Shown one piece after another: positions 7,139 to 7,771 of a DNA stretch of 11,351 nt. Position 1 is the first letter of the stretch, and every line of letters starts with the position of its first letter. The notes below the pieces were generated by a model. That model ran no database searches. It saw only the letters and a list, made by a program, of their open reading frames with translations, and was not told the DNA's origin. The DNA lies in NCBI GenBank assembly GCA_020200615.1, contig JAIVIH010000061.1, positions 1 to 11,351 of the forward strand, given 5' to 3'. The translations under genes and the position numbers were made by a program. This DNA comes from Actinomycetota bacterium (GTDB taxonomy: Bacteria > Actinomycetota > Acidimicrobiia > Acidimicrobiales > AC-14).

Positions 7139-7771
7139 CTAGCTGATTTCCACCGATCCCTGGAGAACGGCGTCCACCCGGAGCCTTTCCTCGCCGGGCT
7201 CGAGGGTCGCCCGGAACGGGCCTTCGCCGAACTTCACGGACGAGGCGCGGGCCGACCGGTCGGGGAACTGCACCTGGAGGTCTCCCGTCACCTCCAGCCT
7301 TCCCGGCCCCTCGACCTCGAACTTCGTCATGGGTTCGAGGCGGACGACGACGTCGCCCTGGGAGACGAGGACGGTCCGATCGTCGGCGGTGAAGTCGACG
7401 CCCTCCTGGGGCGTGGCCAGGCCTCCGGCGCCCACCGCCACCGGCGCGCCGATGCCGTAGTCGCCGGGCAGGAACTTCCGGCCGCGGCCGTCCAGCGACC
7501 ACACCGCGCCGCTGCCGTCCACCTCGAGGTGGGCCGGCCCCAGATCGAGCCCGCCCGCTCCCAGTCGTGCTCGGCGTCCAAGGGCATGTACTCGATGAAG
7601 CGGATGTCGCGTCCGCTGCGGCGGGCCAGCCGGGCGAAGTCCACGACCTCGTCCTCGTTGGTGCCGGCCAGCACCACACAGTTCATCTTGGGCCAGGTCG
7701 CAGACGAGGACGAGTCCGATGAGGAAGGCGAGGCCCTGGCGCACGGGCGCGAGAGTACGTTGGTTCCGCAT
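7139..7771 (-). CDS. Unrecognised signal-anchored protein carrying an in-frame moaA-derived insert
   Basis: A 210-codon frame with ATG at 7771 and TAG at 7139. Residues 1-27 look like a signal or membrane anchor (MRNQRTLAPVRQ then GLAFLIGLVLVCDLA). Residues 28-73 are encoded by a 138-bp piece of moaA read in a non-moaA frame, giving an Arg/Gly-rich stretch unlike natural protein. Residues 74-210 look like a genuine, mostly beta-strand acidic domain (for example DDRTVLVSQGDVVVRLEP and GPGRLEVTGDLQVQF). I do not recognise the family. Without the insert the two natural parts would join in frame (VCDLA to GLDLGPAHLEV), which supports one ancestral secreted or cell-surface protein. It may now be a disrupted gene. 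The frame continues upstream to 8059, but there it is antisense to the AAA+ gene. A GTG at codon 10, seven bases after TACTCT, is an alternative leaderless start. Confidence 0.55.
   Translation of the reverse strand: MRNQRTLAPVRQGLAFLIGLVLVCDLAQDELCGAGRHQRGRGRGLRPAGPPQRTRHPLHRVHALGRRARLGAGGLDLGPAHLEVDGSGAVWSLDGRGRKFLPGDYGIGAPVAVGAGGLATPQEGVDFTADDRTVLVSQGDVVVRLEPMTKFEVEGPGRLEVTGDLQVQFPDRSARASSVKFGEGPFRATLEPGEERLRVDAVLQGSVEIS
7553..7690 (-). repeat. Displaced, inverted moaA fragment
   Basis: Read on the minus strand, this segment encodes MoaA residues 159-204 (starting near MNCVVLAGTNEDE) before similarity ends abruptly at GCGGGCTCG. It is exactly 46 codons, begins at a codon boundary of the host frame, and contains no stop in that frame. 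Four of six differences from the intact moaA are silent in the MoaA frame, and the other two are Asp to Glu and His to Arg. Confidence 0.95.

Follow-up and report, generated by a model that had tools for sequence, protein, structure and literature searches.

Short-patch double illegitimate recombination reportedly replaces a short genomic stretch with a short unrelated piece, taken from within the genome or from outside it, and reportedly leaves microhomology at the joins. The locus described here, at positions 7553-7690 of an 11,351-nucleotide, apparently metagenomic contig from an uncultured actinobacterium (the whole stretch of DNA that was analysed, hereafter the window), would appear to work in the same way. 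A genomic stretch has been replaced by a short unrelated segment, with 46 codons standing against 96 in the relative P0001. It differs in that one of its two joins is without microhomology, and in that it is known from the sequence of a single contig rather than from competence or mutation data. According to PMC7192050, short-patch replacements are presumed to matter little in natural populations.

Inverted chimeras formed in MDA (Lasken and Stockwell 2007, PMC1855051) are described in that paper as nearby segments joined in inverted orientation, with the intervening sequence lost and short complementarity at the join. However, they consist there of a single join of two segments, whereas here host sequence resumes once 138 nt have passed. 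Insertions and changes templated by template switching are similar in being short templated copies of nearby sequence, but PMC8421209 and PMC8604942 concern cancer cells and yeast inverted repeats, and the piece found here is 4% off its likely template. Transposition and integron-type insertion were considered and set aside. As the original prediction had noted of transposases, integrases and terminal repeats, the ends of the piece carry no repeat, and a Pfam scan of 10 window proteins, a subset of the reading frames, found no transposase or integrase among them. Nor is there support for a gene-conversion remnant in the strict sense, one of the origins first proposed for the tract, since around it host and donor have no homology other than the few bases inferred for one of the joins.

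An inverted moaA segment in an unrelated gene

The moaA-derived segment is a real feature of the sequence. Pairwise comparison within the window aligns its reverse complement with moaA without a gap, and outside the match identity drops at once to background on both flanks. An inverted-repeat search of the window returns the same pair of 138 nt at 96% identity, with 814 nt between the arms; the remaining four inverted pairs listed are 30-37 nt long and 70-83% identical. The piece begins at codon position 1 of the host and is free of stops in the host frame. Within it the moaA sense strand coincides with the host coding strand, with the frame shifted such that moaA codon position 3 becomes host codon position 1. 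Everything initially reported of its geometry (an unrelated host gene, the match to moaA, sharp ends, a length divisible by three, a start at a codon boundary and the lack of a stop) was reproduced on recomputation.

Table 1. Coordinates of the moaA-derived segment, its source copy, the joins and the neighbouring genes.
Feature	Positions	Strand	Description
moaA (GTP 3',8-cyclase)	6080..7117	+	345 aa; Pfam Radical_SAM and Mob_synth_C
Matching segment of intact moaA	6601..6738	+	pairwise match to 7553-7690
Host gene as it stands	7139..7771	-	210 aa; no Pfam match; 27 aa + 46 aa moaA-derived + 137 aa
Retained C-terminal part of host	7139..7552	-	137 aa; 113/137 identical to P0001; matched by 119/119 homologues
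Inferred 6-nt microhomology GCGGGC at one join	7553..7558	-	L087 and L092 read GGC GCG GGC GGN
moaA-derived segment in host gene	7553..7690	-	138 bp; 132/138 identity to 6601-6738
Other join, blunt (GCC / CAAG)	7690..7691	-	no microhomology seen
Retained N-terminus of host	7691..7771	-	27 aa, membrane helix; 26/27 identical to P0001
Divergent AAA ATPase	7770..9170	+	Pfam AAA_5; start overlaps host gene start
VWA-domain gene	9173-10840		next after ATPase

A survey of inverted pairs (at least 60 nt, at least 88% identity, E 1e-8) across 88 loci (L001-L080 and L094-L101) and the window, 961,682 bases together, revealed no comparable copy of a gene fragment elsewhere; apart from a palindrome in L094, the search picked up just two further pairs, both within an array of short units in L074. 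That array, in a MAG of the Nocardioidaceae, repeats the unit ACGCCGAGGCGCGCGTCGTTG... on the two strands at a distance of about 1.1 kb (L074:8319-8416 and 9449-9577).

Replacement of part of the host gene

The family to which the host gene belongs (P0001-P0120, L083 and L087-L093) has no Pfam match and combines one membrane helix with a beta-rich part in about 259 aa. Among the matches listed, the best 120 of 175, most homologues have about this length against the 210 aa of the window protein. With the window's own entry P0002 (two member sequences on one contig) removed from P0001-P0120, 119 homologues are left, of which P0001 is the closest among the matches listed; 34 match the short N-terminus and 26 can be measured at both ends. 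The two sides of the host lie 95-107 residues apart in every one of these 26 measurable homologues, and P0001 has 96 residues where the window protein has 46 derived from moaA. Comparison with relatives thus shows that 138 bp of moaA have taken over the place of about 288 bp, roughly a third of the host gene, a replacement and not a clean insertion. Of 10 genomes from one related family, eight have the gene. Six of the eight copies align over both joins with 95-96 residues between them, and the other two, which align only from P0001 residues 71 and 53 on, still have 53 and 71 of the residues that the window protein has lost. Aligned with 22 relatives, the window protein is without a stretch containing ISWDGGTPLPISG, and conserved residues are among those lost.

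These comparisons alter part of the initial picture. The claim of an in-frame junction between the two sides, were the piece absent, is correct arithmetically, but relatives have the intervening residues just described. Homologues were expected to lack the insert, and indeed the 46 moaA-derived residues (28-73 of the protein) find only chance-level matches in the 119 listed (five matches, best E 2.1); yet other residues fill the place, which rules out a clean insertion. With some 96 residues gone there, conserved ones included, the notion of a small captured fragment that spares the host gene had to be given up. Relocation of the lost middle within the window was rejected: when parts of P0001 and P0003 were used as tblastn queries, the hits at E 0.003 and 0.41 both fell in the retained C-terminal part and all others had E of at least 0.6. 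More broadly, the host gene was present in two (L010 and L013) and moaA in none of 80 loci cut at 5 kb, and within the order 27 of the 397 genomes had a match to P0001.

The two joins are of different character. At the 7553 end the GCGGGC of moaA abuts what was likely GGC GCG GGC GGG in the host. The codons GGC GCG GGC are read there in two of eight relatives (L087 and L092) and differ in the other six. These codons, taken as a proxy for the ancestral host sequence, point to a microhomology of about 6 nt, and the putatively shared GCGGGC makes the position of this end ambiguous by as much. At the opposite end, host GCC is followed directly by CAAG of moaA. moaA itself has GGT before CAAG, and the relatives that align at this join mostly have a valine codon there, so that the two partners would have shared no bases at 7690/7691.

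What remains of the protein is probably non-functional. A model of P0001 (mean pLDDT 91.5, pTM 0.76) places a helix at residues 9-37 and strands from 59 on, and gave no fold match in the PDB at E 0.001 or better. The lost stretch, residues 28-123 of P0001, carries the predicted strands 59-75, 83-87, 94-102, 105-111 and 117-121. Because the missing part holds these five predicted beta strands, the host gene has probably been disabled, leaving an allele that is null or nearly so. The open frame needs no special cause, as it has a chance of about 0.2 (1/3 for the length times 0.613 for the lack of a stop in 138-nt pieces of moaA); it stayed open by luck.

Source and mode of origin of the segment

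Sequence comparison shows that the piece stems from moaA of this lineage. Across 10 related genomes its best match is moaA, at 82% over 136 nt against 96% for the local copy, with shorter matches reaching 92% over 26 nt; the motifs KMNCVV and AEHDWER are common to the piece and local moaA, and among 120 moaA proteins, the top-scoring of 7915, the 15 that match best do not have them. Read as moaA, the six differences comprise four silent changes, a D to E and an H to R, and a chance of 0.02-0.04 attaches to at least four of six being silent; under the host frame, four of them alter the residue. We placed the differences with eight outgroup moaA genes drawn from eight of the 10 related genomes (G403 and G404 have no clear moaA, and one of two G399 copies was used). 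Two changes fall on the moaA branch, at site 177 (by all eight outgroups) and at the first base of site 194 (by G405 and G406), three on the insert branch, at sites 186, 190 and 200, and one, at site 198, cannot be placed. All eight outgroup genes are 1-4 nt nearer to local moaA than to the piece. The three insert-branch changes all sit at third positions of moaA, which are first positions of the host, and each is either silent or shared with two or more of the 120 listed homologues, for which the chance is 0.04-0.06 with three random changes and 0.016-0.026 with four. Because the piece's own changes fit the moaA codon frame, there is a weak hint, resting on three to six changes, that it diverged as moaA before the event and so represents the allele of a sibling strain.

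Searches for such a sibling returned little. Among the best 120 of 175 host matches none besides P0002 comes near 90% identity, the nearest being P0001, and a host search restricted to 76-240 aa returned four proteins; P0002, which belongs to the window itself, is the only close one among them. No moaA above 81% appears among the best 120 of 7915, a set in which the window's own moaA is also missing, so that this result is weak; a 31-mer across a junction was absent from viral_contigs, a collection unlikely to contain it.

The best explanation, to which we give about an even chance, is an illegitimate short-patch replacement in the cell. A moaA DNA strand of this lineage, perhaps that of a sibling strain, would have entered the host gene by copying or ligation, one end using the approximately 6 nt of microhomology and the other joined bluntly. 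About 288 bp of host sequence would have been lost and 138 bp of moaA left in their place, in a frame kept open by luck, with the beta-rich region partly removed and the allele probably null or nearly so. We infer the sibling donor, the loss of function and an origin in the cell rather than in the tube or the assembler. The return to host sequence at the second join and the blunt first join speak for such an event, as does the fact that the ATPase, VWA, moaA, fur and macro genes can be aligned with those of relatives for all or most of their extent, so that the quality of the contig is not low in general. A pair of joins sharing 0 and about 6 nucleotides would also be unlike the product of k-mer assembly alone. 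On the other side, the structure rests on a single contig, the microhomology is seen in the codons of two of eight relatives only, DNA from outside need not derive from the adjoining gene, and the 814-nt proximity, inversion, lost sequence and read-like length fit chimeras too.

Only a little less probable is an artefact, also among the origins first suggested: a gap-closing read set in the wrong place, or a chimera formed in the library or during amplification, would have put an inverted, read-length piece of a co-occurring sibling's moaA into a poorly covered stretch of the host. Trimmed short reads have lengths close to 138 nt, the 4% divergence in moaA's own frame is as expected from a co-assembled sibling, and the whole structure is carried by one contig. 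Inverted orientation of segments less than 10 kb apart is typical of amplification chimeras, which PMC1855051 describes as mostly inverted (406 of 475) and often close together (337 of those under 10 kb apart). However, an artefact would require two joins 138 nt apart, whereas the chimeras in that study join two segments and have complementary bases at 93.5% of inverted joins under 10 kb, against one of two joins as judged here; the chimeric path would moreover need to exceed the normal path in coverage, and the neighbouring genes align well. A local template switch in replication within one genome, in which the polymerase jumped to the opposite strand within moaA and, after 138 nt of copying, went back beyond 288 bp of the host gene, with the 4% divergence accruing in place, would account for the inversion, the distance below 1 kb, the changes on both branches and the slightly closer outgroups of local moaA. 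We consider it improbable, since the insert-branch changes follow the moaA codon frame and the host frame shows no further break despite the time that such divergence takes. Even less credence attaches to the exon-like capture proposed originally, in which the piece would be a new linker, read in a frame other than moaA's, in a working fusion protein. The open frame and well-preserved flanks agree with it, but so open a frame arises by chance about one time in five, the five-strand stretch of about 96 residues is gone, the two host sides are contiguous in none of the 26 measurable homologues, G+C at third positions in the host frame is 0.39 in the piece against 0.85 and 0.92 on its two sides, and the database gene call P0002 (127 aa) begins downstream of the piece. 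That a natural population of this uncultured actinobacterium carries such a working fusion, with a sibling's moaA piece in shifted frame replacing a beta-rich part through one illegitimate replacement, seems to us equally far-fetched. We regard the locus as an oddity of an ordinary kind and not as a harmless capture. If real, the illegitimate replacement would be a natural short-patch event with its donor, target and both joins in view, and would illustrate gene scrambling without a mobile element; if it is an artefact, the lesson is that a contig can be wrong even where the frame is open and the ends are sharp.

Gene neighbourhood

The host gene lies head to head with the AAA ATPase gene, whose product we take to be MoxR-like, in all eight G228-family loci, and the ATPase and VWA genes flank it there as in the window in eight of eight. 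The window ATPase is 74-79% identical to those of these loci and 62-71% identical to the 34 best records. A macro gene accompanies the host gene in six of the eight loci, fur in one and moaA in none, several of these loci being cut by contig ends. With an ATPase start at 7770, the start codons of the two genes would overlap on opposite strands (7770-7771), which would leave little room for ordinary promoters between them; several related loci are spaced about as tightly.

In the related genome G405, it is fur that adjoins the host gene (L096; window 5590-6024), and moaA sits on a separate contig, so that adjacency of moaA to the host gene looks lineage-specific. Both P0006, a host homologue, and P0121, a moaA protein, are on contigs of 7182 bases, and the two genes may therefore be neighbours in another lineage as well.
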